Part shown: in pieces, positions 3,846 through 64,000 of the stretch
Position numbering within the stretch: the stretch's first letter is position 1
How the letters are laid out: every line of letters begins with the position of its first letter
Virus record (IMG/VR): IMGVR_UViG_3300008111_000018
Coordinates: 57,903-121,902 of that record
Strand: one strand, 5' to 3'
DNA from: a virus
DNA: 64,000 nucleotides
Notes under the pieces: generated by a model
What the model was told of the DNA's origin: nothing
Database searches by the model: none
The model's input: only the letters and a program-made list of their open reading frames with translations
Program-made: the position numbers and the translations under genes

Positions 3846-3861
3846 TAAGTAGGTTTTTATT

Positions 3862-10452: not shown

Positions 10453-10614
10453 ATGGATGATTTAATGGATATGATTGCTGCTGAAGAATCACCTTCGCAG
10501 ATTAGCGATAAAATCAAAGACCTTTTGTTTGCTAAAGCTGCAGAAAAAGTTGATGAATTTAAACCTGAAGTAGCAAATTCGATGTTTAATAGCGAACCAG
10601 AAGAGGAAGAATGA
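10453..10614 (+). CDS. 67: Prohead core protein, gp67-like
   Basis: A 53-residue acidic ORF, MDDLMDMIAA at the start and EPEEEE at the end. T4 has the small acidic core protein gp67 in the same place, right after gp20. Composition, size and position fit. It overlaps the next gene by four bases (ATGA at 10611-10614). In T4, gp67 is needed for correct prohead shape and is cut by gp21. Confidence 0.72.
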   Translation: MDDLMDMIAAEESPSQISDKIKDLLFAKAAEKVDEFKPEVANSMFNSEPEEEE

Positions 10615-10931
10615 AATCCTTCAAACAATTCATCTCAGAATCAGTAAATATTTCCGGAGACTTTAACGGAAATCTTTACATTAACTCCCAACCAGAAACA
10701 CCACAACAGGTTGGAGAAGAGTATGTTGCGGATGTTTTGTGGCAAGGAAGTTTGTATAGGATGGAATTGGTTACTAAAAGTGGAATTCCATCTAAAAGAG
10801 ATTTAGGAGAACAACTTCAGGGAGATTATCCAGGAGCAGTCGTTCATCAGATTTATCCCGTAACTGAAAAGAATTTCAATATTAGAAACGCAAAAAGATA
10901 CCACCCATCAAAGTTGGAATGGATTGATTAA
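10611..10931 (+). CDS. Prohead core/internal protein in gp68 position with capsid-targeting N-terminus
   Basis: A 106-residue protein starting MKSFKQFISE followed by Ser. The first ten residues match the pattern of the T4 internal-protein targeting peptide (MKTYQEFIAE), with I-S-E as a consensus (I/L)xE cleavage site for prohead protease gp21. The gene sits where T4 gene 68 (prohead core) lies, between the gp67-like gene and gp21. The rest has a beta-type domain (DVLWQGSLYRMELVTKSG), and a similar fragment occurs in the 615-residue protein at 1998 (VTLSWRGKYYSLKMFFPQVK). Identity with gp68 is by position only. Confidence 0.65.
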   Translation: MKSFKQFISESVNISGDFNGNLYINSQPETPQQVGEEYVADVLWQGSLYRMELVTKSGIPSKRDLGEQLQGDYPGAVVHQIYPVTEKNFNIRNAKRYHPSKLEWID

Positions 10932-12262: not shown

Positions 12263-12814
12263 ATGGCTCATAGACCAGTTGGGGCGGGTTCCTCATTTAC
12301 ATTTACTGCAGGTGCTGCAACAACATCATCTGCCTTTTCGGTACAATCTAGTGTTTTGAGAGTGGTTGCAGTCGGTGGTGCAGCGCATATTTCTGTAGGC
12401 GGAAATCCATCAGCAACTTCTGCAGATTACTATGTTTCATCTGGAGAATCTGCCACTCTAGGTTTAACAAAAGCTTCAAATAAAGTTGTAGGCATAACTA
12501 CCGGCACAACAACAATTGTTACAGTTCCAGAAGGAACTCAAGTTCCTTTTGGTGTTGGTGATTATGTTACACTAACTGCAACAGGACAATCATATTACAA
12601 CTTCACACACCAGCAAGTTTTATCTGTAGATATTTCTTCTGGGGTAGGTGGTTACTATCAGACACGAATGACTGTTAATTATAATTCAAGTGGAATTGTC
12701 ACAGCATTCTCTTCAACAGATGCTACTGTAATTAATTCAAATAAAGTTTCTGCATACGGTGTAGGTGCAGGAACTCTGTATTACCAACAAGTACAAATTT
12801 CAGGAGATGCCTAA
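12263..12814 (+). CDS. Virion structural protein, possible head decoration
   Basis: A 183-residue protein rich in Ser, Thr, Val, Ala and Gly (for example GSSFTFTAGAATTSSAFSVQ), typical of beta-structured particle proteins. It has its own late promoter box and ends on the start codon of gp21 (overlap of one base). Part of the sequence (ITTGTTTIVTVPEG) looks like short repeat beta strands. A related-looking small structural gene lies at 44895. Function in the head is inferred from composition and position. Confidence 0.75.
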   Translation: MAHRPVGAGSSFTFTAGAATTSSAFSVQSSVLRVVAVGGAAHISVGGNPSATSADYYVSSGESATLGLTKASNKVVGITTGTTTIVTVPEGTQVPFGVGDYVTLTATGQSYYNFTHQQVLSVDISSGVGGYYQTRMTVNYNSSGIVTAFSSTDATVINSNKVSAYGVGAGTLYYQQVQISGDA

Positions 12815-13464
12815 TGAAACTAATTAGAGAAGAAATCGAAAGAGTAGAGGTTATTACCGAAGGAACTGGTAAGCAAGCAAAACTCTACATTAAAGGACCA
12901 TTCTTGCAAGCAGAATGCGTGAATCGCAATGGAAGAATGTATCCTATGCAGATTATGGAACGTGAAGTAAATCGTTATAACGAACAATACGTTCAAAAGG
13001 GACGTGCTCTTGGCGAACTAGGACATCCAGACGGACCTACTGTTAATTTAGATAGAGTTTCTCATAAAATTACAGAACTTTATCGCAGCGGAAATAACTT
13101 TATCGGAAAGGCACAAATTTTATCCACACCAATGGGTAAGATTGCGGAGTCTCTTCTTAAAGATGGAGTAACTCTTGGCGTTTCTTCTCGTGGTATTGGG
13201 TCTTTAAGAGAGAATAATAAGGGATATAAAGAAGTTGGTGAAGACTTTATGCTTGCAACTGCTGCTGATATTGTAGCAGATCCCTCAGCTCCCGACGCAT
13301 TTGTTCAGGGAATTATGGAAGGAAAGGAGTGGATTTGGGATGGTGGCATCCTTAGAGAAAAAATGGCAGAAAATACTAAGAATAAAATTAATACCCTTGT
13401 AGACCAAGGTATTCTTGAAGAATATAAGTTATCATTATTCAATGAGTTTTTAAACTCATTGTAA
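12814..13464 (+). CDS. 21: Prohead core protease gp21
   Basis: A 216-residue serine protease of the herpesvirus-assemblin/T4 gp21 type. The likely catalytic His is in GELGHPDGP (about residue 70) and the catalytic Ser in LGVSSRGIGSL (about residue 126). It would cleave scaffold, core and capsid proteins after (I/L)xE and then itself. This specificity explains the recurring N-terminal peptides in other genes here. It is followed by gp22 and gp23 as in T4. Confidence 0.94.
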   Translation: MKLIREEIERVEVITEGTGKQAKLYIKGPFLQAECVNRNGRMYPMQIMEREVNRYNEQYVQKGRALGELGHPDGPTVNLDRVSHKITELYRSGNNFIGKAQILSTPMGKIAESLLKDGVTLGVSSRGIGSLRENNKGYKEVGEDFMLATAADIVADPSAPDAFVQGIMEGKEWIWDGGILREKMAENTKNKINTLVDQGILEEYKLSLFNEFLNSL

Positions 13465-13520: not shown

Positions 13521-14690
13521 ATGTCTCGTGGAGATTTACAAGAAATGGAAGTAGGCACTAAACCATCCAGAACCGCTGTTAATGCAAATGCTAAAGCGGC
13601 GGATCCGATGTCAAAACTAACTACAGGTATTCCTGACGGCCAAACTGCAGGTTGGGAAGATCTTGGTGGACCTGATCCTTCAAACTATCGTTCAACGGAT
13701 GATTCAGCAAAACTGAAAACTCCTGGAGCAACACTCAAGCAAGTTAGAGATGTTGTAAATAAAGGCGCAGGTTCTGCTGATCCAATGAAGGGTCTTCATA
13801 AAGAGGAAGAAGAACTTGATAATGAGGATATGATTGAAGAAGAGAGTGATGAAGATGTAATCGAAGAGGCTGCTGAAGAAGAGGAAGAAGCACCTAAGAA
13901 AAAGGCAAAGAAAGAAGAAGAGAACGAAGAAGAAGAGGACGAAGAAGAAGAGGACGTAAAAGAAGAGTTTGATATTGAGGAAGATGTCAATGCTCTTCTT
14001 GAAGGTGAAGAGCTTTCTGAGGAATTCCAAGAGAAAGCACGCACCATCTTCGAGGCTGCTCTTCGTTCAAAAGTTGCTTCTATTCAAGAAGCACTTGAAG
14101 AGCAGTATGCAGTTGCACTTGCAGAAGAAGTTGAAGAAATTAAAGAAGCACTTTCTGAGCGTGTAGATGCATACCTTGAGTATGTTGCTGGCGAGTGGAT
14201 GGAAGAAAATGCACTCGTTATCGAACAAGGTCTTAAGACCGAGATGACCGAATCATTCCTCCAAGGAATGAGAGGTCTTTTTGAAGAACATTATGTATCA
14301 ATCCCTGAAGATAAATATGATGTGCTTGAGAGCATGGTAGAAAAACTTGATGAAATGGAGACAAAACTCAACGAGCAAATCGAGAAAAACGTTTCCCTTA
14401 ACAAGCGTCTCGCAGAGTCGGTTGCTGATGGAATCTTTGATCAAGTCGCTGAAGGTCTTGCAGACACTCAGAAGGACAAGCTCGCTTCACTTGCCGAAAG
14501 TGTTGAGTTTGAAAGTGAAGAAGAATATCGTGAAAAACTGGAGACTTTGAAGGAATCATATTTCCCTTCAAGAGTAATTTCTCCTTCAGCTAAAACTGAA
14601 TCTCTGTCAGAAGGTGTAGACAATGCACCCGAATTAATTTCAGGTTCAATGGCTGCATATCTGAAGACTCTTTCAGCATTCAGCAAATAA
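13521..14690 (+). CDS. 22: Major prohead scaffold protein gp22
   Basis: A 389-residue, very acidic, mainly helical protein. Residues about 95-155 are almost only Glu/Asp with a short lysine patch (PKKKAKKEE). The later half is coiled-coil-like with repeated LxEE/LxEx segments that would serve as gp21 cleavage sites. It is followed by gp23, as in T4. The acidic run creates a long Ser/Phe-rich open frame on the other strand that is not a gene. Ribosome site GGAGAG precedes the ATG. Confidence 0.92.
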   Translation: MSRGDLQEMEVGTKPSRTAVNANAKAADPMSKLTTGIPDGQTAGWEDLGGPDPSNYRSTDDSAKLKTPGATLKQVRDVVNKGAGSADPMKGLHKEEEELDNEDMIEEESDEDVIEEAAEEEEEAPKKKAKKEEENEEEEDEEEEDVKEEFDIEEDVNALLEGEELSEEFQEKARTIFEAALRSKVASIQEALEEQYAVALAEEVEEIKEALSERVDAYLEYVAGEWMEENALVIEQGLKTEMTESFLQGMRGLFEEHYVSIPEDKYDVLESMVEKLDEMETKLNEQIEKNVSLNKRLAESVADGIFDQVAEGLADTQKDKLASLAESVEFESEEEYREKLETLKESYFPSRVISPSAKTESLSEGVDNAPELISGSMAAYLKTLSAFSK

Positions 14691-14748: not shown

Positions 14749-16176
14749 ATGTTCCAATCCGAGCATCTGCAGGAAAAGTGGGCACCCCTCTTAGACTATC
14801 AGGGTCTTGATCCAATCAAAGATTCTCATCGTAGAGCCGTAACCGCTGTCCTGCTCGAAAACCAAGAAAGATTTGTTAGAGAGCAATCTGCTTTCGACAA
14901 TGGCTCCATGAGTATGCTCATGGAATCACCAACCAACAGTGGCAATGCCGCTGGCGCTAGCGGCGCTTTTGGTAGTGGTGGTAGCCAAAGCGTTGCTGGT
15001 TTCGATCCAGTTCTGATCTCACTTATTCGTCGTTCAATGCCTAACCTGGTCGCTTATGACCTCGCTGGCGTTCAACCAATGAGTGGTCCTACTGGACTCA
15101 TCTTCGCAATGCGCTCCCGCTACACCAATCAGAGTGGTGCAGAAACCTTCTTCAATGAAGTAGATACTGCATTCTCTGGTACAGACTCAGGTTTCGATAC
15201 CACTCTTACTGGCGCTCATTCGCAAGTAGGTTCTGGTATTGGTACTACCGCACAGTCTGGTAGTAACCCAGCTCTTCTGAACGCTGCTTCAGTTGCTGCT
15301 ACCGATTATAACGTCGGTCAAGGTATGCCAACTGGCGATTCAGAAGCACTTGGCGATGCTGCAGGTAACCAGTTCAACCAGATGGCTTTCTCAATCGAGA
15401 AAGTTACTGTTACTGCAAAGTCACGCGCCCTGAAGGCTGAGTACTCACTCGAGCTCGCTCAAGACCTCAAGGCAATCCACGGTCTGAATGCTGAAGCGGA
15501 ATTAGCAAACATTCTCTCAACTGAGATTCTTGCTGAAATCAACCGCGAAGTTATTCGTACCATCTACATGACCGCTGAAAAGGGTGCAGCACAAAACGTT
15601 GCTACCGCTGGCGTATTCGACCTCGACGTTGATTCAAACGGTCGTTGGTCTGTTGAGAAGTTCAAGGGTCTTCTGTTCCAAATCGAGCGCGACGCTAACG
15701 CAATCGCACAAAGAACTCGTCGCGGAAAGGGCAACATCATCATGTGTTCTGCTGACGTTGCTTCAGCACTAACCATGGCTGGTGTTCTTGATTACACCCC
15801 TGCACTAAACGCTAACCTGAACGTTGATGATACTGGCAACACCTTTGCTGGTACTCTGATGGGCAAGTTCCGCGTATACATTGACCCATATTCAGCAAAC
15901 CTGACTGCAGGTAATGCAACTCCTGGTAACCAGTACTACGTTGTTGGTTATAAGGGTTCTTCACCTTATGATGCAGGTCTGTTCTATTGCCCTTACGTTC
16001 CTCTCCAGATGGTGCGTGCCGTTGGCGAAGACACCTTCCAGCCCAAGATTGGCTTCAAGACTCGTTATGGTCTTGTTGCTAACCCATTCGCTGAGGGTCT
16101 CAGCAGAGGTGAGGGTAGACTCAACGTTAACACCAACCGCTACTACAGAAGAGTTGCTGTTAAGAACCTTATGTGA
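14749..16176 (+). CDS. 23: Major capsid protein gp23
   Basis: A 475-residue capsid subunit with the HK97-type fold of T4-like phages. Marker stretches are SLIRRSMPNLVAYDLAGVQP and AMRSRYTNQSGAETFFNEVD. A likely gp21 maturation site is LME-S at residues 57-60, before a Gly/Ala linker. Codon choice is richer in C and G at third positions (AAC, TTC, CGC) than in the surrounding genes, as expected for the most highly expressed gene. A strong terminator follows. Confidence 0.98.
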   Translation: MFQSEHLQEKWAPLLDYQGLDPIKDSHRRAVTAVLLENQERFVREQSAFDNGSMSMLMESPTNSGNAAGASGAFGSGGSQSVAGFDPVLISLIRRSMPNLVAYDLAGVQPMSGPTGLIFAMRSRYTNQSGAETFFNEVDTAFSGTDSGFDTTLTGAHSQVGSGIGTTAQSGSNPALLNAASVAATDYNVGQGMPTGDSEALGDAAGNQFNQMAFSIEKVTVTAKSRALKAEYSLELAQDLKAIHGLNAEAELANILSTEILAEINREVIRTIYMTAEKGAAQNVATAGVFDLDVDSNGRWSVEKFKGLLFQIERDANAIAQRTRRGKGNIIMCSADVASALTMAGVLDYTPALNANLNVDDTGNTFAGTLMGKFRVYIDPYSANLTAGNATPGNQYYVVGYKGSSPYDAGLFYCPYVPLQMVRAVGEDTFQPKIGFKTRYGLVANPFAEGLSRGEGRLNVNTNRYYRRVAVKNLM

Positions 16177-23433: not shown

Positions 23434-25623
23434 ATGTCCGTCCGTCACGAAATCAAATCTCAACTTGCAAAACTCCTTGCTACTGAAGACCTTGTAGTTG
23501 AGCACAAGAAAGTAGAGACCGCTTGCTTCAACGTTCATACTCGTGTCTTAACTTTGCCTTTGTGGGAGAAGGCAAGTGGACTTGTGTATGACCTTCTGGT
23601 GGGTCATGAGGTCGGTCATGCACTCTTCACTCCCGATGAAGACTGGTTGGAAACTGTGAAAGTTCCTCAGCAGTTTGTAAATGTTGTTGAGGATGCACGT
23701 ATTGAAAAACTAATGAAGCGTAAGTATGCTGGACTTGCCAAGACTTTCTTCAACGGTTATAAAGAACTGAACGAGGAAGATTTCTTCCAACTTGGAGATG
23801 AAGATATTTCTACTTTTAATCTTGCTGACCGTGCTAATCTTTATTTTAAGATTGGTAACTTTCGGACTCTCAATTTTAAACCCGAAGAGAAAGAAATCAT
23901 TAATTTGATTGATGCTTGTGAAAGTTTTGCAGATACTCTGATTGCTGCAGAAGAACTTTATAAGTATTGTAAGAAAGAAAAAGAGCAACAACAGAAGGTT
24001 TCTGATTTCGATTCTCACGAGACTCAAGGAAATTCACAATCTCCTGCAAGTGATTTTGTGGAGACTAATGATTCCTCTTCTGAACAAGAAGGTGAGAGTG
24101 ATAAGTCTCAGGAACAACCTGGCGAATCTGATTCTTATGGTGGAACGGCTCAAGGAAATGAAACTCCTGTAAAATCTTCTGATACTGAAGAAGAACCTGA
24201 AGTTCGCACTGCAGAATCTCTGGAAGATAAGATTCGTGATCTTGTTGGAAACGATGACTATGAGAATACGTACATTGAGATTCCTAAAGTAAATCTTGAA
24301 ACTATTATTGGTAAGAACTATGATGTTCATAAGGATATTGATGACTCTTTTTCTCATCAACAGAAACTTCATAATGAACATGCAAAAGATAGAGGATATG
24401 CTCCAGTAAATCTTTATAAAGAAGTTGATATTGAGTTTAAGAAGTTTAAGTCTTCTGCTCAAAAAGAGGTCAACTATCTGGTGAAAGAGTTTGAATGTCG
24501 CAAAGCAGCAGACCAGTACGCTCGTTCTTCAACTGCTCGAACTGGTGTTCTTGATACTACTCGTCTTCATACCTACAAGTACAATGAAGACCTGTTCAAG
24601 AAAGTTTCTGTGATTCCTGATGGTAAGAATCATGGTCTGGTATTTGTTCTGGACTGGAGTGGTTCTATGGCTGAAGTGATGCTTGATACTTGCAAGCAAC
24701 TCTTTAATCTTGTTTGGTTCTGCAAGAAAATTTCCATTCCTTTTGAGGTTTATGCTTTCACCAATGAGTGGCGTCGTGGTGAGTATGATTATGAGAATGA
24801 CCGTTATTTTGCTGCAGACCGTACTCCTCATTATGAGAAGAAAGATGGTCTTTTGGTTGTGGATGAAACTTTCTCCATGATGAATATGCTTACTAGCAAA
24901 GTTTCTGGTAAAGAGTTAGAACATCAGATTCTTAACATTTGGCGTCTTGCTTATTGTTTTGGTAGGACTTATAGTTCTCCTTATACATACTCTAATCGTC
25001 TTAGTCTTTCGGGAACTCCTCTAAATGAAGCACTGATTACCCTTCATCAAATTCTTCCTAGGTTTCAGAAAGAGAACAAACTGCAAAAAGTTCAGTGTAT
25101 TGTTCTGACTGATGGTGAAGCAAGTCAATTAGTTTATCATCGAGAAGTTAAAAGGCATTGGGAAAAAACCCCCTTTCTTGGAACTGGATATATTAATCCA
25201 CATAATACTTTTATTCGCGATCGTAAACTTGGAACTACATATAAGATTGGTTATGGGTATCATGATTTTACCGATACTCTTCTAAGGAATCTGAAGGACA
25301 AGTTCTCTTCTACAAACTTTATTGGTATTCGTGTTCTTGAACCTCGCAATGCAAACCGATTTATTCAACTCTACCATTCTCATAATGATAATCAGTATGA
25401 AAAAATCCAGAATGATTGGAAGAAAGTGAAAAGCTTCACTATTACTAAGTCTGGTTATGATGCATATTTTGGGTTGTCTGCAACCGCACTTTCTCAGGAA
25501 TCTGAGTTTGAAGTTGCTGAAGATGCAACAAAGTCTCAAATCAAGTCCGCTTTTGTAAAGTCTTTGAAGACTAAAAAACTAAATAAAAAAGTATTAGGAG
25601 AATTTATTTCTTTGGTAGCATGA
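23434..25623 (+). CDS. CobT-like protein: metalloprotease motif plus VWA domain
   Basis: A 729-residue protein. Near residue 53 is GHEVGHALFTPDEDW, an HExxH zinc-protease motif. The middle (about 185-270) is a low-complexity Ser/Glu/Gln linker. The C-terminal half is a von Willebrand A domain with the metal-site motif VFVLDWSGSMAEV near 405 and a TDGEASQLVY segment near 560. Such proteins are called CobT in T4-type cyanophages because of resemblance to the cobaltochelatase subunit. Together with the MoxR-type ATPase at 26369 it probably makes an ATPase/VWA chaperone pair; a cobalamin role is only inferred from the name. Confidence 0.88.
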   Translation: MSVRHEIKSQLAKLLATEDLVVEHKKVETACFNVHTRVLTLPLWEKASGLVYDLLVGHEVGHALFTPDEDWLETVKVPQQFVNVVEDARIEKLMKRKYAGLAKTFFNGYKELNEEDFFQLGDEDISTFNLADRANLYFKIGNFRTLNFKPEEKEIINLIDACESFADTLIAAEELYKYCKKEKEQQQKVSDFDSHETQGNSQSPASDFVETNDSSSEQEGESDKSQEQPGESDSYGGTAQGNETPVKSSDTEEEPEVRTAESLEDKIRDLVGNDDYENTYIEIPKVNLETIIGKNYDVHKDIDDSFSHQQKLHNEHAKDRGYAPVNLYKEVDIEFKKFKSSAQKEVNYLVKEFECRKAADQYARSSTARTGVLDTTRLHTYKYNEDLFKKVSVIPDGKNHGLVFVLDWSGSMAEVMLDTCKQLFNLVWFCKKISIPFEVYAFTNEWRRGEYDYENDRYFAADRTPHYEKKDGLLVVDETFSMMNMLTSKVSGKELEHQILNIWRLAYCFGRTYSSPYTYSNRLSLSGTPLNEALITLHQILPRFQKENKLQKVQCIVLTDGEASQLVYHREVKRHWEKTPFLGTGYINPHNTFIRDRKLGTTYKIGYGYHDFTDTLLRNLKDKFSSTNFIGIRVLEPRNANRFIQLYHSHNDNQYEKIQNDWKKVKSFTITKSGYDAYFGLSATALSQESEFEVAEDATKSQIKSAFVKSLKTKKLNKKVLGEFISLVA

Positions 25624-26129
25624 AGACATTCCAAGAATTTATGGTAGAGTGCTGCTCTATTCAAGAAACCTCTTTGAATAGAGTTCGCTCAAAATCACAA
25701 AAAGGTGGCATGGCAATTATGTCTGCCCAAAGAGGTGATAAGTCAAAGACGGAAAATAAGTCTCGTTCTAAGCAACTAGAGAAAGACATTAGAGGTGCTG
25801 GTCTTCCGGGACCTACTAAAGTTTCTGGAAGATATACCGAAAACCCAGGAACTCCTCAAGAGAAGAAAGTTGGTGAGAAATCACACGTAATTTCTTCTGG
25901 TAAAAAGGGTAAAAGAACTTTTAAGAAAGCAATCACTAAACTTGGTAAGAAATATAATCAAGATTCTGTTTTAATTCAAAAGAAACCAAAAGGTGGTGCT
26001 CAACTTGTTGGAACTAATAAGTCTTGGCCTGGAGAAGGTAAGCGTGTTAAAGTTGGTAAAATGAAACCAGGTAGAACTGGTGAATTCGATACAAAAGTTA
26101 AAAACAAAACATTTACTTATGAAGACTAA
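25620..26129 (+). CDS. Basic protein with capsid-targeting N-terminus
   Basis: A 169-residue, lysine- and glycine-rich protein starting MKTFQEFMVE, then Cys-Cys. The first ten residues are nearly those of the T4 internal-protein targeting peptide (MKTYQEFIAE), with M-V-E as likely gp21 site. The body has short conserved-looking stretches (KGGMAIMSAQRGDKSKTENK, GKKYNQDSVLIQKKPKGG). It overlaps the CobT-like gene by four bases and the next gene by 11. A basic, DNA-associated protein injected with the genome is a plausible role; no catalytic motif is recognised with certainty. Confidence 0.75.
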   Translation: MKTFQEFMVECCSIQETSLNRVRSKSQKGGMAIMSAQRGDKSKTENKSRSKQLEKDIRGAGLPGPTKVSGRYTENPGTPQEKKVGEKSHVISSGKKGKRTFKKAITKLGKKYNQDSVLIQKKPKGGAQLVGTNKSWPGEGKRVKVGKMKPGRTGEFDTKVKNKTFTYED

Positions 26130-38293: not shown

Positions 38294-39313
38294 ATGGATA
38301 CCAGAGAACTTAGAGGTTTATTTGAAGCTTATCAGCAGGTTCATGTATCTGTTGATGAAGCAGTAAAGGGACAAGATACTGGAGAAAGAAGAGAAGCGTC
38401 TCGCGAAAGAAAGCGTGGAGATAAGCGTCTTTCTCCATCAGCAGGAAAAGCAAATGCTGATAAAATGGAAAGAGATATTAAGTTCTACGATAAGGTTACT
38501 AAAAAAACAAGACCTTCAGTTGTTGGTATGACGCATGAAGAGGTTGGGAAGATTGACGAAGAACCAACTCTCGGTAGAATTAAATCGGCAATGGCATCGC
38601 AGAGGTCAGCGCAAAATGCTGCTGGCATGAGAGGTTCTGAATTGACCCATGGAGCTAAACCAGCAGCAAAATCATCAGCAGGTTCTGCTGCAATAAAACC
38701 ACAACCTAGAAGTAGAGAATTTTCTCATGGTGGTTCTGGAACTCCCCTTAAAGCAACTCTAAAGGGCGGATTAACTATGTCATACGAACCACAAGGAAAT
38801 CAACTCGAAGAAGATTTTGATATCTTTGATATTGTCCTTGAGTTCCTCCAAGTAGAAGGATACGCAGAAACTCTGGAAGAAGCAGAGTGGATTATGGCAA
38901 ATGAATTGGATGCTGAAGACATCGATGCAATCCTTGAAGCAGAAGGTTCATACGGACAGACACCTAAAGCAAGACAAGCAATGGGTAAACTTGCTATCGC
39001 AAGACGTGAGAAACCAGCAAGTGAGTATTCACAGAAAGGTGAAAAGACTAAGAAAGTAAAAGAAATTGAAAAGCACACTCGTAGGATTGATAATGGTCCT
39101 GATGTAGGAAATCGTGGTAAGAAATCTACTAAACCAAGATACTCTGGGATGTTAGGTAAATCTGGTAGGGGTAAACTTGACCAAGATAGTAGAGATTATG
39201 CAAGAGATAGTGCTGTTGAGTATACTTCTGGTGGACACAAACCTGGTTCTGGTACTGTAACTAAGAATCCTAAGAAACTGCGTAAGCAAAAAGCAATGGG
39301 TGAGCACGACTGA
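38294..39313 (+). CDS. Large putative head-internal protein, LxEAY family
   Basis: A 339-residue basic and Ser/Gly-rich protein. N-terminus MDTRELRGLFEAY with Glu11 in L-F-E fits a gp21 cleavage site. Residues about 163-174 hold SYEPQGNQLEED, a motif repeated three times in the protein at 41939. Then comes the acidic FDIVLEFLQVEGYAETLEEA block shared with the proteins at 22902 and 51595. The C-terminus NPKKLRKQKAMGEHD is also found inside the 41939 protein. I infer a packaged, processed internal protein. A host-type promoter and tRNA-Ala follow. Confidence 0.72.
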   Translation: MDTRELRGLFEAYQQVHVSVDEAVKGQDTGERREASRERKRGDKRLSPSAGKANADKMERDIKFYDKVTKKTRPSVVGMTHEEVGKIDEEPTLGRIKSAMASQRSAQNAAGMRGSELTHGAKPAAKSSAGSAAIKPQPRSREFSHGGSGTPLKATLKGGLTMSYEPQGNQLEEDFDIFDIVLEFLQVEGYAETLEEAEWIMANELDAEDIDAILEAEGSYGQTPKARQAMGKLAIARREKPASEYSQKGEKTKKVKEIEKHTRRIDNGPDVGNRGKKSTKPRYSGMLGKSGRGKLDQDSRDYARDSAVEYTSGGHKPGSGTVTKNPKKLRKQKAMGEHD

Positions 39314-39383: not shown

Positions 39384-39456
39384 GGGGATATAGCTCAGTT
39401 GGTAGAGCGCGGTCTTTGCAAGGCTGATGTCAGGAGTTCGAGTCTCCTTATCTCCA
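39384..39456 (+). tRNA. tRNA-Ala(TGC)
   Basis: 73 nt, acceptor GGGGATA pairs with TATCTCC, anticodon loop TTTGCAA, T-loop TTCGAGT. CCA not encoded. Isolated from the main array, with its own promoter. Confidence 0.95.
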
Positions 39457-39483: not shown

Positions 39484-40620
39484 ATGGCAGCAGAAAAAAT
39501 AGACGCCAATAGAGGGGATTTGTTTGAAGCATTTTTTGCTGCAGCTGTTGCTGCAAGATTTGTTAAAAGAGCAAAAACAAAAAGTGCAAAAGTACTCCCC
39601 AAGATATCATCCAATGATGTGGATGGTGTTTTAACTGAGATGATGAAAAAAGGATATACTAAAAATGTAAACGATGTTGGTAGTGCGGTAATTGATACTG
39701 TAAGTGTAAATGTATCAATTCCCAAAAAAGCATTGTCTTTCTTACAGGATAGGTCTAATTGGGCTAAAGTTTCTGACTTGAGAACTGGTGCAGTAAACTT
39801 TGCAAACTCTCATTCAAGACTTAACGCACAAGCGAGAGGACTATCTATAAATGAAAGGCAAGATATTATTAAAGTAACTGCTGCTGGAACAGAAGACCAG
39901 AAGGGAACAAAGGCGGATGTTAAGGTTGAAGTAAACTCTCCAACCAATCCAGACAAAAAATTTAGAAATGTTGATTACTCTCTAAAAGTTACTGGAGGAG
40001 AACAGTTCCACCAAGTTTCTGGATTGGGATTTGACAAGTTTTTAGATATATTCGGTCAGATGGGAATAAATGTATCTCCAGTTTCAGGTGCATATGAGAA
40101 GAGTTTAAGTGACTTTTTTGATGTTGAAGTTTATACTAAAAAATATTCAAGTAGAGAGCAGGCACAATCTACTGGTGGTGGAGATAATCTAAAGAAAAGT
40201 GCCAGAGTAGTTTATGAATACGCAGCAAAAGTTCTGCAGGAAGGTTTGAATGCAGAAGGACAAAATTCTGTAAAAATAAAATTTGCCGATTATATCATCT
40301 ATGGTTTGTCTAGGGGAGTTAGAACTGAACTTGTTAAGTTTGCTGGTAGTGGAAAAGTAAAAACCAGAGTTGCTGATAGGCAGTTCAGAAATGTTTTAGT
40401 TTCAAATAGATATTCCGTTGAAATTAAAAAAACTGGAGACCCTAAAATAGAAATATATCTTGCCGACGAGAATGGCAAGAAAAGAAGCGGTAAAGATTAT
40501 TTTGTTATGCAGATAAGGTATAAATTAGAAGTTGCCAGCGGAACTTCTGGCGGAAGTAAAGTCTATAGATTTTATCCAAGAAACTATCTGGAAGCACAGG
40601 CAGGAATGTTCTTAATCTAA
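39484..40620 (+). CDS. Unassigned late protein, possible PD-(D/E)xK-type nuclease
   Basis: A 378-residue protein with N-terminus KIDANRGDLFEAFFAAAVAA. In the middle, TKADVKVEV followed by YSLKVTGGEQFHQVSG places Asp, a later Lys and Gln in the arrangement used by PD-(D/E)xK restriction-type nucleases. This is a motif impression, not a proven match. The C-terminus is beta-rich. It is expressed late (CTAAATA box) next to the capsid-targeted nucleotidyltransferase. Alternative: a structural or internal head protein. Confidence 0.5.
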   Translation: MAAEKIDANRGDLFEAFFAAAVAARFVKRAKTKSAKVLPKISSNDVDGVLTEMMKKGYTKNVNDVGSAVIDTVSVNVSIPKKALSFLQDRSNWAKVSDLRTGAVNFANSHSRLNAQARGLSINERQDIIKVTAAGTEDQKGTKADVKVEVNSPTNPDKKFRNVDYSLKVTGGEQFHQVSGLGFDKFLDIFGQMGINVSPVSGAYEKSLSDFFDVEVYTKKYSSREQAQSTGGGDNLKKSARVVYEYAAKVLQEGLNAEGQNSVKIKFADYIIYGLSRGVRTELVKFAGSGKVKTRVADRQFRNVLVSNRYSVEIKKTGDPKIEIYLADENGKKRSGKDYFVMQIRYKLEVASGTSGGSKVYRFYPRNYLEAQAGMFLI

Positions 40621-40623
40621 ATA
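40617..40623 (+). promoter_or_regulatory. Late promoter box overlapping preceding stop
   Basis: CTAAATA overlaps the TAA stop of the previous gene and lies 20 bases before the ATG at 40644. Confidence 0.5.
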
Positions 40624-40643: not shown

Positions 40644-41933
40644 ATGAAAAGTTTTCTCAATTTTCTAACTGAAGCAAAAGAATCGCAAGCAGCAATGCAA
40701 GCGAAGAAACTTGGATACTCTGGGGACGGCCATGGTGGATGGATTGACCGCTCCGGTAAACTTGTTGCAAGAACTGAAAAGGGAAAGTTAAAATTTACTG
40801 ATGGAAGAAAACCAAAAGGTGCAGAACAACCAGCAGCAGGAAGACAACCCGCTGGTGCTGCTCCAACTGCACAACCAACTCAAGCAGGACAAGCACCTGC
40901 GCCACAACCTCAAGCAGCACCAGGACAAGCACCAGAAGAGCAACCTGCAGAAGAACTGCCACCACTTACCGTTGTGTTTGGTCGCTTCAATCCACCAACA
41001 GTAGGACACGAAAAACTTCTCAAGTCGGCAAAGAGAATTGCTACTGGTGGAGATATTAAGATTTACCCTTCAAGGTCTCAAGACCCTAAAAAGAATCCTT
41101 TAGATCCTAATACTAAGGTTTCTTATATGAAAAAAATGTTCCCCGAATTTGAAGAGAACATTATTAATGATGAAGAAATGAAAACCATTTTTAATGTTCT
41201 AGTGACTGCAAATGAAGATGGATATACTAATGTCAATATTGTTGTTGGTTCTGACCGTCAAGCTGAGTTTGAAAACCTTGCTCAAAAGTATAATGGGGAC
41301 CTTTATAACTTTGACTTAATTCGTGTAGTTTCCGCTGGTGTAAGAGATGCAGATGCTGAGGGTGTTGAAGGAATGTCTGCATCTAAGATGAGAAAGGCTG
41401 TAGTAGATGATGATTTTAAATCATTTCGTAGAGGAACTCCAAAGACACTTGATGATGCAGAAACTCAATCACTTTTTAATGCCGTTCGCCAAGGAATGGG
41501 AGCAAAGAAATCAAAAGTCAAGAAAGAAAGTTTTGCTTTATGGCAGATTGCTCCAAAGTATGATATGAAAAATCTTCGAGAAAATTATATAAGAGGAAAA
41601 ATATTCAATCTTGGCGATAAAGTTCAGAATTTAAATACTGGTTTGATTGGTGAAGTGATGCGTAGAGGAACTAATCATTTAATTTGTGTAACCGAAGAAG
41701 GTTATATGTTTAAGTCTTGGATCAAAGATTTAATGGAATATACTGAAGTTAAGATGGATCGTATGTATAGAACTCCAGGAAAACCAAATACGCTTGTTGG
41801 AACTGCTGGATATCTTAAATATGCATTCGAACAAACACCTGGTTCTAAATTTGGGAAAGAAAATATCCAACCAGGCGGTAAAGCATTCTTGAATTTCATA
41901 AATAAGTATAAGAAACAAAAAGTACGTGCTTGA
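40644..41933 (+). CDS. NMNAT/NadR-like nucleotidyltransferase with capsid-targeting N-terminus
   Basis: A 429-residue protein. It starts MKSFLNFLTE then Ala, a T4-like capsid-targeting peptide with an L-T-E gp21 site. Residues about 55-110 are a Pro/Gln/Ala linker. The nucleotidyltransferase domain starts at TVVFGRFNPPTVGHEKLL (about 112), whose GRFNPPTxGH is the phosphate-binding (H/T)xGH motif, and includes GSDRQAEF and a terminal EGMSASKMRKA like the SxTxxR motif. Family members join nucleotides to small phosphates (NMNAT, PPAT, cytidylyltransferases); the substrate cannot be told. The C-terminus has a separate Sm/SH3-like part (GDKVQNLNTGLIGEVMRRGT). Confidence 0.82.
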   Translation: MKSFLNFLTEAKESQAAMQAKKLGYSGDGHGGWIDRSGKLVARTEKGKLKFTDGRKPKGAEQPAAGRQPAGAAPTAQPTQAGQAPAPQPQAAPGQAPEEQPAEELPPLTVVFGRFNPPTVGHEKLLKSAKRIATGGDIKIYPSRSQDPKKNPLDPNTKVSYMKKMFPEFEENIINDEEMKTIFNVLVTANEDGYTNVNIVVGSDRQAEFENLAQKYNGDLYNFDLIRVVSAGVRDADAEGVEGMSASKMRKAVVDDDFKSFRRGTPKTLDDAETQSLFNAVRQGMGAKKSKVKKESFALWQIAPKYDMKNLRENYIRGKIFNLGDKVQNLNTGLIGEVMRRGTNHLICVTEEGYMFKSWIKDLMEYTEVKMDRMYRTPGKPNTLVGTAGYLKYAFEQTPGSKFGKENIQPGGKAFLNFINKYKKQKVRA

Positions 41934-41938
41934 TAAAG

Positions 41939-44467
41939 ATGTCTACTAATCCTCTGAATGATATTTCCAAGGTTTATTTGGAGCAGGTCGCTACTGTTGA
42001 AGAAGGTGTACGTCCTGGAAATGTTGAAACTCCTCTTGATAAAGCAACATTCAAAAAGCGTAGAAGAAGTCTTGCTGGAAAAGAAAAAAGTGCTGAGGCA
42101 AGAGCAAGAGGGCACGAAGGTAAAGAATGGTATAACAGTGGAAGAACATATTCTCCAGATGAAGCAAAGAGAAGTCGTGCAAATATGGATGATGAAGAAA
42201 GACGCACAAGACATCGTAGTGCTGTAGACCCCGATGATGATAATGATAATAACTACTCTGCAGACAAGACAAAGAATCCTAAGAAACTCCGTAAGCAAAA
42301 AGCAATGGGAGAGTCTGCAGTTCCAGGAAAACCTGCAGAAAGACTTGGTGCAGTAACTACCATTCCAAAGAAAGAGAGAGATGCTGCAAGAGAGAGGTTA
42401 CTTGCAAAAGCAAAAGCAATGCGAGAAAAAAAGGGGATTAAAGAAGCAGCAAAACCAGATTATTTGGATTTTGATAAAGATGGGAATGAAAAAGAATCTA
42501 TGAAAAAAGCTTTAAAAGATAAAGCAAAAAATAAAGTAGAAGAAGCGAATGATGGAAACTTGGCAAATAATTATCCCCCATACGACAAAGTAACTAGAGG
42601 TGATGTTATTGCAGGTGCTCTAGGAAAAGACCAACTAGGTGGTAAAAAGAAAAAAGTAACCAAGGAAGAGTATTCAAATTGGAGACAAGACCTTTCTGAA
42701 GTAATTGGTGAAGTTGCTAAAGATAAAAAAGAAGATAAAATATCAGAAAAAAAAGTAAACAATACTATTAAGATTAATCCTGATATTAAAGAAGCGGTTG
42801 AAAATCTTGGTGGCACTCTACTTGAGATGGTAGAAGTTGATGAAGTTGATTATGTTGTTGAAAGTGTATATGACGAACTTTTAGATGAAGGTTATGATGA
42901 AGATGAGATTGAAGAGGCAATCGAATTTGCACTTACTGAAGCAAAAGTAACTTTCGGCCATGATACTCCCAGCAGCCAAAAGAAAAGAGGTAATTTAGTT
43001 GCAGCGGTCGGTAGACTTGCAAGACAAAAACTTTCTAGCAAAGTTCGTAGTGCTAAAAAAGCAGCAGGTGCAGCAGTTGCTAGAGGTGCAAGAAAGGTTG
43101 CTAAAGGTGCATTGAGTGTTGCCAGAAAAGCAGAGGGTGGAGATGCAAAACCAAGTGCAGCACACACTAAAACAAGAAGCGCATCTACATATCGTGGTGC
43201 TGGAGCAGGTCAAAAAGAAAGAGTAAGTAGCGGTTCTTATCAAGCACCAAGTGCAACTAAAAAGAAAGCAGAAAAACCCGCCGATCCTTGGGAAGGAAGT
43301 GCAACAACTCCAGCAAAACCAAAAGCAAAAACTAAAAAAGCAGCAGCACCTAAAGCAAAAACTCCTGCAGCAACTCCAAAGAGAAAAAGAAAGTCTAAAT
43401 TAGATGACCTTCTTGCATCAGTCCGCAGTGAGAATATTCATTTTGGCGAACAAAGTTTTGATATTAGTCCTGCAGGGCATAGACAGCAGCAAAGAATTGA
43501 AAAAGCAACTAAATTGCAACAGGCAACTAAAGGTGCAGAATCAAGTGCTGCAAGTTCTGCTGTAAAGAGACTTGGTGGTTCTGGAATTAGTCTCCCACTT
43601 GCAAATTCTTATGAACCAAGAGGTAAAGAACTGAGCGAAAATCCTCTTACTTCACTTGACAAATTAGCGAGAGGCACAGCACAGACTGTTGGTGGTACTA
43701 TTGGTAGAAACCAAGGACAAAAAACTGGTATTCCTGGTGGAGGAACTGTTGGTGGACTTCTTGGTAGACAAAAAGGAGGACAAATGTATGATAAGGCAAA
43801 AGGAACTATTGGTGGACTTCTCAAGCAATCTTATGAGGTAGATGGTGAAAATCTTGAAGAACTCTCATTACCAGGAACTGGTAGAGTGATGGCACCCAAA
43901 GGAATGTCCCTTGGTTTTCAGAACAAATTTTTAGGAATGAATGTTGGTCCAAGACAGGAACTTCCACTAAGTAAGACTTATTCCCAATCTTCTGTAGATA
44001 GATATAATCGCAGCGCAAGTGCGCCAAGTACTTTGGAAAAAATGGGTTCTGGTCCATTAGCAAATAGGCATATTAGCATTCCAAAATCAAAACCAACTGT
44101 TGCATCTACAACTCCAGCAAAACCAGTTGCACCCAAACCCCAAACTGCATCTGCAGCTATGGCTAAAGCATTTAAGGGAACTCCTTTAAGTGGTGTAGCA
44201 AATATTGCAAACAAATATGATGAAAGAAGTAATTATAGAAATCAACCACCTGAATTAAGAAGGATGATGGGTCTTCAAAATTCTTACGAACTAGAAGGAA
44301 ACCAAATTGACGAAAAAACTTTATCTTCTAAAGAGACTAAAGAAAAAGAAAGAATTGTAAAGTCTATGAAAGATAAAGCATCTGATTTTGAAAAGAGATA
44401 TCCTGGTCGTGGTAAGGAAGTAATGTATGCTACTGCTACAAAACTTGCCAAAAAAATTGCAAAGTAA
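41939..44467 (+). CDS. Giant basic head-internal protein with SYExxG repeats
   Basis: An 842-residue, Lys/Ala/Ser-rich, low-complexity protein. Early it has TKNPKKLRKQKAMGE, the same as the C-terminus of the 38294 protein. An acidic segment (VYDELLDEGYDEDEIEEAIE, about 300-320) recalls the LxEAY family block. The middle is a histone-like basic region (KAAGAAVARGARKVAKGALS). Three copies of SYE-xx-G-xx-(L/I)xE occur, encoded at about 43607, 43829 and 44282. The end (YPGRGKEVMYATATKLAKKI) is a tail I know from many cyanophage proteins. I infer a DNA-associated, protease-processed core protein. Confidence 0.72.
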   Translation: MSTNPLNDISKVYLEQVATVEEGVRPGNVETPLDKATFKKRRRSLAGKEKSAEARARGHEGKEWYNSGRTYSPDEAKRSRANMDDEERRTRHRSAVDPDDDNDNNYSADKTKNPKKLRKQKAMGESAVPGKPAERLGAVTTIPKKERDAARERLLAKAKAMREKKGIKEAAKPDYLDFDKDGNEKESMKKALKDKAKNKVEEANDGNLANNYPPYDKVTRGDVIAGALGKDQLGGKKKKVTKEEYSNWRQDLSEVIGEVAKDKKEDKISEKKVNNTIKINPDIKEAVENLGGTLLEMVEVDEVDYVVESVYDELLDEGYDEDEIEEAIEFALTEAKVTFGHDTPSSQKKRGNLVAAVGRLARQKLSSKVRSAKKAAGAAVARGARKVAKGALSVARKAEGGDAKPSAAHTKTRSASTYRGAGAGQKERVSSGSYQAPSATKKKAEKPADPWEGSATTPAKPKAKTKKAAAPKAKTPAATPKRKRKSKLDDLLASVRSENIHFGEQSFDISPAGHRQQQRIEKATKLQQATKGAESSAASSAVKRLGGSGISLPLANSYEPRGKELSENPLTSLDKLARGTAQTVGGTIGRNQGQKTGIPGGGTVGGLLGRQKGGQMYDKAKGTIGGLLKQSYEVDGENLEELSLPGTGRVMAPKGMSLGFQNKFLGMNVGPRQELPLSKTYSQSSVDRYNRSASAPSTLEKMGSGPLANRHISIPKSKPTVASTTPAKPVAPKPQTASAAMAKAFKGTPLSGVANIANKYDERSNYRNQPPELRRMMGLQNSYELEGNQIDEKTLSSKETKEKERIVKSMKDKASDFEKRYPGRGKEVMYATATKLAKKIAK

Positions 44468-51349: not shown

Positions 51350-51556
51350 ATGAAAACTTTTAGGGAGTTTATTTTTGAAATGTCCTACCAAGGAATGAGT
51401 AGAGAAAAGGAAAATAGAATTAAAAAACAAATGACTGCTGCTAAAAAGTCGGCAAAGAAAGCATCTCAAAGTGGTGATATTGAAGCAGAAGTTAGGCACG
51501 ATGAAAGATATAGAGCAATGAGAGATAAAGTAAAAAGAAGAGACTTACCTTTTTAA
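51350..51556 (+). CDS. Small basic protein with capsid-targeting N-terminus
   Basis: A 68-residue protein starting MKTFREFIFE then Met. The first ten residues follow the T4 internal-protein pattern MKTYQEFIAE, with I-F-E as likely gp21 site. The remaining 58 residues are helical and strongly basic (KKQMTAAKKSAKKASQSGDI), as in T4 internal proteins. Confidence 0.72.
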   Translation: MKTFREFIFEMSYQGMSREKENRIKKQMTAAKKSAKKASQSGDIEAEVRHDERYRAMRDKVKRRDLPF

Positions 51557-62552: not shown

Positions 62553-63479
62553 ATGAAAAAAATATACCTTGTTAATACAAGTGAGTATCCGACAAAGGGT
62601 ACTCACTATTTGATGAGTATGAAATTTGTGAATGGTTTTTCTTTATATGGTCTTGAAGCATATGATTTAAAAAACTTTGAAGAAATCGAAGATTCTGAAG
62701 ATCAAATATTCTTGATGTGTGATAACTTTTATGATCAAAGAAGTTCTAATTGGATGGACTACTTTGATTATTTGGCAAATAAGTTTCAAAAAACTACTTG
62801 GATTTTTTGGACTTTCCATAATGTATTGAATAATCACTATAAAGAAAAAGACTTTCCATTCAAAAAGTATATTTTTACTGGAGAGTATTATAGAGATCCT
62901 GATTTTTCATATTTTGGAGAGCACTTCAGGGAATATGTAAATCATCCAAATTATGTTTCTCTTCCTTTTGCTGCCAGTATTAATCCAAATGATATTGATT
63001 ATATTCTATCCCAAAGAACTGATGAGTATGATTGTGGATTTTCGGGATGCAACTATAAGGAGGAATGGTCTCGTAAGTTAGAACAAAAATATAATTGCTT
63101 TATTCATTATTGGCCTCCATTTCTTGATGAATCTGAACGTATCCGAAACGCTTTTCTAGGTTCTAAAATTTGTCTAGGGTTTAACTCCGACGATAATATT
63201 AAAAATGGTCTACCTACAGAAAGAGTATTTGAGGGCATTGCTTACGGTTGTGTAGTTTTAACTGATTGTGAAATGGCTGTAGATGCAACTGATGGTGTTG
63301 CAGTTTATGTTTCGGATTATACTGACTTGGAAAAAAAAGTGGAGTATTATCTAAACAATGAAGAAGCACGTTTAGAAAAACAAAAACAAGGAAAGTTGTT
63401 TGCAAAATCTAAAGGAACATATTATAGTGTTATTGAAAACTTCTTAAAAACGATCAATAAAATTTACAATGAGTCATGA
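62553..63479 (+). CDS. Glycosyltransferase, CgeB/GT1-like
   Basis: A 308-residue protein. The C-terminal half (GFNSDDNIKNGLPTERVFEG, YGCVVLTDCE, EYYLNNEEARLEKQKQGKLF) is the glycosyltransferase type found in CgeB-like proteins, with the sugar-nucleotide binding ExxxG...G pattern. It starts two bases after the epimerase stop and overlaps nadE by four bases. Likely uses the product of the epimerase; acceptor unknown. Confidence 0.8.
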   Translation: MKKIYLVNTSEYPTKGTHYLMSMKFVNGFSLYGLEAYDLKNFEEIEDSEDQIFLMCDNFYDQRSSNWMDYFDYLANKFQKTTWIFWTFHNVLNNHYKEKDFPFKKYIFTGEYYRDPDFSYFGEHFREYVNHPNYVSLPFAASINPNDIDYILSQRTDEYDCGFSGCNYKEEWSRKLEQKYNCFIHYWPPFLDESERIRNAFLGSKICLGFNSDDNIKNGLPTERVFEGIAYGCVVLTDCEMAVDATDGVAVYVSDYTDLEKKVEYYLNNEEARLEKQKQGKLFAKSKGTYYSVIENFLKTINKIYNES

Positions 63480-64000
63480 ATAGAATTACTGATTATAATA
63501 AGGTAAAGACTGATATTGTTAAGTGGTTGGGTGATTATGCCATAGAATATCCAACTATTAAGTCTTTTGTTGTTGGAGTTTCTGGTGGAATTGATTCTGC
63601 TGTTGTAGCAACTCTTTGTGCAGAAACCGGTCTTCCAACTTATGTTCTTTCTATGCCACTCCATTCTAGTGCTAAGAATGATACTTTGTCTGATGAGTAT
63701 AGTTCTTTACTGGAAGATAAGTATGATAATGTTACTAAGATTAGAATTGATTTAACGAGTACATATGACCAACTCGTAAATTCTTTCGAATCAATTAATT
63801 CTCAGTTTGTTTCAAATCAATTGGCAAATGCGAATACAAAGTCTCGTATTCGCATGGTTACACTATATCAAGTTGCGGGTTCTGTAAGTGGTATTGTTGT
63901 TGGTACTGGAAACAAAGTTGAAGATTATGGTGTAGGATTTTATACTAAATATGGTGACGGTGGAGTTGATATCGCCCCTATTGCAGATCTTTATAAGACT
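63476..64000 (+). CDS. nadE: NAD synthetase NadE, N-terminal part (partial)
   Basis: The frame starts MNRITDYNKVKTDIVKWLGD and runs off the window. The PP-loop VVGVSGGIDSAVVATL (about residue 33) and GTGNKVEDYGVGFYTKYGDG (about 142) are the ATP and deamido-NAD binding motifs of NH3-dependent NadE. It converts nicotinate adenine dinucleotide to NAD. It overlaps the glycosyltransferase gene. Together with the NMNAT-like enzyme at 40644 it suggests the phage supports NAD pools. Confidence 0.92.
   Translation, partial: MNRITDYNKVKTDIVKWLGDYAIEYPTIKSFVVGVSGGIDSAVVATLCAETGLPTYVLSMPLHSSAKNDTLSDEYSSLLEDKYDNVTKIRIDLTSTYDQLVNSFESINSQFVSNQLANANTKSRIRMVTLYQVAGSVSGIVVGTGNKVEDYGVGFYTKYGDGGVDIAPIADLYKT

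Follow-up and report, generated by a model that had tools for sequence, protein, structure and literature searches.

We analysed a 64,000-base stretch of DNA (hereafter the window), the final part of the 121,902-base IMG/VR virus record IMGVR_UViG_3300008111_000018, in which T4-like cyanomyovirus genes are present. The open reading frame (ORF) at 40644–41933 (+ strand, ATG start, 429 amino acids) encodes a nucleotidyltransferase (NTase) of the T4-GC190 cyanophage family, phrog_395, which begins with a predicted T4-type capsid-targeting sequence (CTS). The explanation that we favour on balance is that the NTase is an enzyme expressed late and carried as cargo in the head. Its ten N-terminal residues would bring it into the prohead core, where the prohead protease gp21 would cut after LTE (residue 10) and leave the mature enzyme beside the DNA, so that it would probably enter the cell with the genome. 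The HUP-fold enzyme would then use ATP to adenylylate a small phosphorylated acceptor, setting pyrophosphate free; candidate acceptors are nicotinamide mononucleotide (NMN), nicotinate mononucleotide (NaMN), phosphopantetheine or something used together with a DUF6267 partner. For this phage, packaging in the head is very probable and predicted cleavage by gp21 nearly as much so; injection into the cell, by analogy with T4, is somewhat favoured.

Packaging of this family has already been proposed in print; the accessible parts of the papers concerned do not mention the CTS. Further, a literature search in which most subscription journals were not covered returned no published description of a capsid-targeting sequence in cyanophages. 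The main additions made here are the conserved CTS, a shared module termed DGHG and a link to DUF6267. The conservation of the CTS, the existence of homologues that lack it, the presence of gp21 in the same phage and a late-promoter-like motif would each extend the published picture. The CTS with its gp21 site also provides a specific reason to expect packaging over co-purification, and predicts a new N-terminus at Ala11.

Domain organisation of the nucleotidyltransferase

The first-pass annotation of the window had described this ORF as an NMN adenylyltransferase (NMNAT)-like domain joined by a Pro/Gln linker to a capsid-targeting peptide with an L-T-E cleavage site. Its position, the linker, the cleavage-site motif (residues 8–10) and both enzyme motifs were found as described. 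The CTS, MKSFLNFLTE (40644–40673), was recognised by alignment with T4 ipII/ipIII and ends at the predicted gp21 cut after residue 10 (LTE/A). It is followed by the DGHG module (residues ~10–57, 40671–40814), which was delimited by hidden Markov model search, tblastn and blastp and contains DGHGGW. Next comes a Pro/Gln/Ala-rich linker of 53 residues (55–107, 40806–40964) with 13 P, 9 Q and 14 A, in which the predicted local distance difference test (pLDDT) score of an AlphaFold2 model falls below 50 at residues 54–103. The NTase domain (residues 105–290, 40956–41513), defined by the fold model and the VIA comparison, carries the motifs GRFNPPTVGH (residues 113–122, 40980–41009) and SASKMRKA (residues 245–252, 41376–41399), both located in alignments; the latter aligns to SGTEIR of the MJ0541 NMNAT. 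A C-terminal SH3-like barrel (residues ~308–366, 41565–41741), phrog_4808-like, is proposed from a weak fold match (best Z 7.2, Foldseek E 0.0024) that goes no further than an SH3/KOW-like arrangement. All these features lie on the + strand, and the module after the CTS and the C-terminal domain are parts beyond the earlier description.

The phrog_395 profile, labelled 'cytidyltransferase', matches the whole 429-residue protein (4.6e-105). In a tblastn search with the NTase, relatives were detected in 533 phage records, 335 of which cover at least 80% of the query; most belong to cyanomyoviruses, with jumbo phages and Methylophilales phages also represented.

A late-promoter-like CTAAATA (40617–40623, + strand), identified by a motif and position scan, lies 27 nucleotides (nt) upstream of the start codon. 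This heptamer is not enriched across the window (9 occurrences vs. a shuffle mean of 14). Of 17 late-promoter-like sites, nine, including the one before the NTase gene, lie 15–45 nt ahead of an ATG ORF, whereas 0.77 would be expected; only the position of CTAAATA upstream of genes is non-random.

The capsid-targeting sequence and its conservation

T4 ipII and ipIII start with MKTYQEFIAE/A, to which the NTase start MKSFLNFLTE/A aligns. In the T4 peptide, positions 4 and 7 serve targeting and positions 8 and 10 processing, and gp21 cuts after L/I-x-E (PMC9026906). The NTase has F4, F7, L8 and E10 at these positions and so shows the T4-type combination of an aromatic residue at 4, F7, L/I at 8 and E10 within about ten residues; like IPII and IPIII, it continues with A. 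A gp21-type protease and an [LI]xE-bearing capsid protein are present in the same phage. The predicted cutter gp21 (12814–13464, + strand; PF03420, 1.5e-40) is 75% identical to the S-SCSM1 prohead protease, the prohead scaffold gp22 (13521–14690, + strand) shares 75% over 240 amino acids with the S-SCSM1 prohead core scaffold, and the major capsid protein gp23 (14749–16176, + strand; PF07068, 2.3e-152) has L-M-E/S at residues 57–60, a cut read from its sequence. The likeness to the T4 internal proteins IPI–III and Alt ends with the payload, an unrelated enzyme: T4 Alt is an ADP-ribosyltransferase (PMC9026906), and Pfam and phrog searches detected no ADP-ribosyltransferase domain in the window NTase.

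Among the 130 ATG-started ORFs of at least 60 amino acids in the window, 4 have the pattern MKx[FY]xxF[LIMV]xE at their first ATG, compared to a mean of 0.0005 in shuffled sequences (n=2000). We also examined 376 loci from viral contigs, the nearest relatives of five queries, which are related to one another, so that the counts are not independent. They fall into clade A (that of the window), B (S-SM1), C (Sf-CH3), D (Melnitz) and E (S-WAM1), with NTase ORFs in 80/80, 80/80, 80/80, 78/80 and 55/56 loci, respectively. A loose CTS was present in 80, 80 and 55 of these ORFs in clades A, B and E, and in none in clades C and D. In clades A, B and E, each of the 215 ORFs has kept the cut site [LI]xE/A, as LxE in 165 and as IxE in 50, even though the distance from the start to GRFxP ranges from 33 to 113 residues in relatives. 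With a tight CTS pattern, 157 NTase ORFs were recovered from the 376 loci vs. only two other ORFs of at least 60 amino acids.

In the Melnitz-like clade D, the usual pattern failed in 78/78 ORFs, and a form shorter by one residue ([ILM]xE at 7–9) was present in 71 of them. In clade C proteins and in three of the four jumbo-phage homologues examined, no more than about a dozen residues precede the enzyme motif; the start of the remaining one (Pseudomonas 30-3) is somewhat longer and likewise lacks a CTS. The jumbo-phage proteins (Klebsiella K64-1, Pectobacterium CBB, Pseudomonas 30-3, Vibrio 2.275), labelled 'cytitidyltransferase', share a homologous NTase domain (27–33% identity) and are free enzymes that lack the CTS, the DGHG module and the C-terminal domain. 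In a FastTree phylogeny of NTase domains, the CTS-bearing groups A, B, D, E and F cluster apart from C and the jumbo phages, with modest node support (0.81), which suggests that the CTS was either gained once or lost once. In one clade C locus, whose NTase has no CTS, the next ORF (L234:3561-3926) starts with MKTYTEFIAEA, almost the T4 IPIII peptide.

Detection of relatives in virions

According to the accessible parts of the proteome studies, members of this family were detected by mass spectrometry in virion preparations of five phages. A 2010 comparison reports the putative citidylyltransferase T4-GC190 in purified S-SM1 virions (PMC3037559), and the S-SM1 gene SSM1_190 is annotated T4-LIKE GC 190. 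S-SCSM1 ORF91, named 'NMNAT', was detected in virions by mass spectrometry (PMC9602691); its product (QFG06348.1) is 60% identical to the window NTase over residues 1–426 (blastp). Further detections concern S-SZBM1_140 (2 peptides; PMC9146016), S-CREM2 ORF154 (3 peptides; PMC10665884) and the S-CBWM1 orthologue, as stated in a citing proteome paper. The three orthologues whose sequences were examined come from S-SM1, S-SCSM1 and S-CREM2, and each of them carries a CTS; the peptides found are MKSFLQFLKE, MKKFSAFLNE and MKNFSSFLTE. S-SCSM1 ORF91, SSM1_190 and S-CREM2 ORF154 share family, CTS, NTase and C-terminal domain with the window protein and differ from it by sequence divergence only, the window phage having nadE in addition.

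We also compared CTS scan hits, matched by hand to annotated coding sequence (CDS) starts, with virion detection in S-CREM2 and S-SCSM1. In S-CREM2, all three CDS with a strict CTS were detected (background 52/219, p 0.013), as were five of seven with a loose CTS (p 0.009). Pooled over both phages, the strict pattern gave 4/6 (p 0.015); in S-SCSM1 by itself there was no significant association. The power of the CTS to predict virion detection is suggestive, not firm. In addition, the CTS-less CBB_73 is absent from the accessible CBB virion table, in which the row for CBB_38 is followed directly by that for CBB_104. By the IPII/IPIII alignment, the conserved site, gp21 and gp23 in the window and the virion detections, the first-pass proposal of a T4-like packaging route is supported. 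Both virion detection of the family and the idea of a rise in host NAD on entry are, however, already published (PMC9602691, PMC10665884, as far as their accessible text goes).

Fold and active site of the NTase domain

In the AlphaFold2 model, built on 68 sequences, pLDDT in the NTase domain was mostly 84–92, with dips to 64–80. Foldseek placed NadM first (5.2e-05) and CoaD second (7.1e-05). In the VIA comparison, which covers only the families on the VIA list, CoaD (5h16) reached Z 13.9 (root-mean-square deviation, rmsd, 3.1; 156 residues aligned), tied with NadM, NadD and MthNMNAT at Z ~13 (2r5w: 13.1, rmsd 3.4, 158 aligned). The HUP fold and both signature motifs are common to the window NTase and NadM, NadD, NadR and CoaD, at an identity of ~9–17% in structural alignments. 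The match to the NMNAT fold is not specific, because CoaD has the same fold.

NMN/NaMN adenylyltransferases follow the consensus GxFxPxHxGH in the first motif and [ST]xTxxR in the second. Both motif types are present in the window NTase, with T replacing H in the first and S replacing T in the second; among its homologues, some have TxGH and others HxGH. Invariant in the 68 sequences are G113, R114, F115, P117, P118, G121, H122, S245 and R250; when jumbo-phage homologues were added (33 sequences), G113, R114, P117, G121, H122, S245 and R250 remained so. The invariant G-R-F-x-P...G-H and S-x-S-x-M-R fit adenylyl transfer from ATP. The active site thus looks intact and adenylyltransferase-like, and the structure model, a check proposed with the first-pass annotation, returned an intact NTase fold. 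On these predictions, an active adenylyltransferase is the somewhat better bet.

Profile matches to solved structures were led by the UPF0348/TmcAL-like HUP protein 3gmi (MJ0951; E 0.0012, only 22 bits), followed among the enzymes of interest by the MJ0541 NMNAT (0.0086), NadR (0.22) and CoaD (0.43). A single-sequence phmmer search for solved relatives gave nothing real (best E 0.42, low-complexity). The window NTase stays below every curated NCBIfam cut-off reported: TIGR01526 at 15.8 bits against 341, NF006479 at 14.2 against 164, TIGR00482 at 11.8 against 112 and TIGR01510 at 13.9 against 103.3. Of the earlier NMNAT-like assignment, the NTase fold therefore stands, by phrog_395 and structure, and the preference for NMNAT over other adenylyltransferases does not; the name NMNAT is not established.

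The RTEGISTT signature of glycerol-3-phosphate cytidylyltransferase is absent from the window protein, which reads EGVEGMSASKMRKA instead, and the Pfam family CTP_transf_like (PF01467) scores 17.5 bits on the 429-residue protein, below the 21-bit cut-off.

DUF6267 as a conserved partner

DUF6267 (PF19782) has a KWDG[AS]P motif, which was found upstream of the NTase, no farther away than 2.6 kb, in 77/78 loci of clade B, 72/74 of C, 64/70 of D and 53/53 of E, and in 0/79 of clade A, that of the window, loci with less than 900 nt upstream being left out of the count. DUF6267 thus adjoins the NTase in four clades; in S-PM2 the two are fused (locus L410), and the phrog_455 profile also joins them. 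The record from which the window derives encodes an unlinked DUF6267 protein (C1:18043-18990, L097). DUF6267 is a steadier partner of the NTase than nadE, and this conserved neighbour offers a functional lead other than NAD synthesis.

K50, D52, G53, E365, G366, V368 and K377 are invariant in seven DUF6267 sequences. We take the order K-x-D-G, Q-x-D, E-G-x-V and K-x-V-x-R to be reminiscent of a polynucleotide ligase or covalent nucleotidyltransferase, with the four elements standing for motifs I, III, IV and V of ligases. A DUF6267 profile search of solved structures returned mainly coiled coils and no ligase, an NCBIfam search likewise gave no ligase, and the literature search, with the same coverage as above, found no paper naming DUF6267.

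Alternative explanations

Several observations weigh against the cargo-enzyme explanation. In S-SCSM1, only one of three CDS with a strict CTS (background 45/282, p 0.41) and one of five with a loose CTS (p 0.58) were virion-marked, and S-SCSM1_30, a CTS ORF 79% identical to the window ORF at 10611, was not. The citidylyltransferase of S-PM2 went undetected in S-PM2 virions according to the accessible text of PMC3037559, as did seven structural proteins. In S-PM2, a 591-residue protein without a CTS combines a DUF6267-like N-terminal part with the NTase at its C-terminal end, so the absence of the enzyme fits a CTS-less fusion, although which S-PM2 gene was meant in that study is not confirmed. 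Of the patterns used in the locus search, one lies near the N-terminus and one is the short CTS itself. On the enzymatic side, the modelled fold does not separate substrates, and solved NMNATs are only weakly linked to the window NTase by sequence (best E 0.0086). Finally, the authors of two proteome papers, including PMC9602691, leave co-purification open in the text available, and peptide counts were low (2–3) in S-SZBM1 and S-CREM2. Such counts would fit an enzyme made in abundance at the late stage and co-purified with virions, being neither packaged nor injected, but detection in five phages, the conserved CTS with its cut site and the absence of the CTS-less CBB_73 from the CBB virion table make this improbable. 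Hardly more probable is a packaged protein that functions only within the head, in the core or at a vertex, and not in the cell. The NTase gene does lie among virion-protein genes, and its SH3-like and DGHG domains may have core proteins or DNA as binding partners; yet the catalytic residues are invariant in CTS-bearing and free forms alike, a constraint not called for in a protein of structural function alone.

With regard to the substrate of the cargo enzyme, a place in the NAD(P) pathway is a tentative proposal. An NMN/NaMN adenylyltransferase that raises NAD at time zero, whether to serve metabolism or to counter defences that deplete NAD, is possible but doubtful: GRFxP..GH and SxSxMR resemble NadM/NadR, the MJ0541 and NadR profile matches and the Foldseek ranking point the same way, and an NAD role was proposed by the S-SCSM1 authors (PMC9602691, in its accessible part). 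The same phage also encodes nadE (NAD synthase; 63476–64000, + strand; PF02540, 1.7e-34), a real gene, as first annotated, that runs off the contig end and is not shown to be part of the system. Against this stand the tied or higher Z of CoaD, the TIGR01526 score far below its cut-off and the presence of PF02540 in just 1 of 15 other NTase-bearing records, some of which are fragments. No NAD-pathway neighbour was seen in the conserved NTase gene block of relatives. The functional link to nadE drawn in the first-pass annotation is accordingly not upheld, nor is its anti-defence role, for which our search found no evidence and saw no defence link for the NTase as an NAD enzyme. An equally tentative reading pairs the NTase with a ligase-like DUF6267 for repairing or tagging the ends of RNA or DNA, or for recycling NMN that a ligase leaves behind. 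The upstream motif in clades B–E, the S-PM2 fusion, the phrog_455 profile, the seven invariant residues and the unlinked copy in the window's own record speak for it, whereas the 0/79 count in clade A and the searches that returned no ligase speak against it. A role in coenzyme A metabolism, as a phosphopantetheine adenylyltransferase-like enzyme, is improbable. CoaD gave the best Z, TxGH occurs in the first motif and a KKNPL stretch is shared with P. aeruginosa CoaD, but TIGR01510 remained far from its cut-off, the alternation of T and H among homologues weakens the case, and a first motif with G-R characterises NadM rather than CoaD.

Other tagged proteins and the DGHG module

Three further ORFs of the window, all on the + strand, carry a putative CTS. 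One encodes an S-adenosylmethionine (SAM) lyase (25620–26129; PF23780, 7.1e-17) with the peptide MKTFQEFMVE/C and 55% identity to S-CREM2 gp6, a SAM lyase that is a virion protein (PMC10665884, accessible part); the window enzyme is a candidate injected anti-restriction enzyme. The others, of 106 (10611–10931, phrog_1742) and 68 amino acids (51350–51556), have no assigned function and were recognised by the motif in the T4 register.

The S-CREM2 virion kinase gp14 and gp6 also begin with a CTS, and the DGHG module is common to the window NTase, gp14 and gp12 (phrog_3561). These S-CREM2 proteins resemble the window NTase in tag or module, and their payload enzymes are different: in the proposed arrangement, the tag would precede the NTase, an APH-like kinase and the large phrog_3561 protein, with the peptide alone on the SAM lyase. 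The module loci, L400:7704-12846 in S-CREM2 and L396:1449-3509 and 3676-4101 in S-N03, encode virion kinases with two module copies and the phrog_3561 protein, annotated Cas9. That label is doubtful for gp12, because no Pfam family was matched at E 0.1, and gp12 was rejected as a nuclease. Its CTS-like stretch begins ~17 residues in and is preceded by a CTG codon, a putative start only.

These likenesses support, at the level of prediction, a general cargo system in cyanomyoviruses. It is conceivable, if still speculative, that a modular tag (the CTS, often with a swappable DGHG module, before unrelated enzymes) admits a set of enzymes with the DNA, and that the NTase, having acquired the tag, acts jointly with the ligase-like DUF6267 on by-products of ligases or on the ends of nucleic acids and not in ordinary NAD synthesis. 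The same tag on the SAM lyase, the kinase and others would allow injected enzymes of cyanophages to be predicted from sequence.

Genomic neighbourhood

The genes around the NTase, all on the + strand, partly follow the order in S-SCSM1, where ORF91 sits in a matching block with a tRNA-Ala and neighbours also labelled virion protein. Three window neighbours match S-SCSM1 ORFs 89, 92 and 95 (blastp). Upstream, a relative of the ORF89 'virion protein' (38294–39313; 38% over 112 amino acids) is followed by a tRNA-Ala (39384–39456) in the same place as in S-SCSM1 and by a phrog_33928 gene of unassigned function (39484–40620), which occupies the place of ORF90 and has no blastp match to it. Downstream lies a relative of the ORF92 'virion protein' (41930–44467; 38% over 328 columns). 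The ORFs at 38294–39313 and 41930–44467 share repeats, including NPKKLRKQKAMGE and SYExxGxxLxE; the latter repeats could represent several prohead-protease sites in one protein.

Across the window, TATAAATA occurs nine times on the + strand and not at all on the – strand. In S-CREM2, the virion protein gp156 (L401:31013-31726), two genes past the NTase, carries a GGNANYNYTPYSDIDLHLV stretch, which we take to resemble a Pol-beta-type nucleotidyltransferase.

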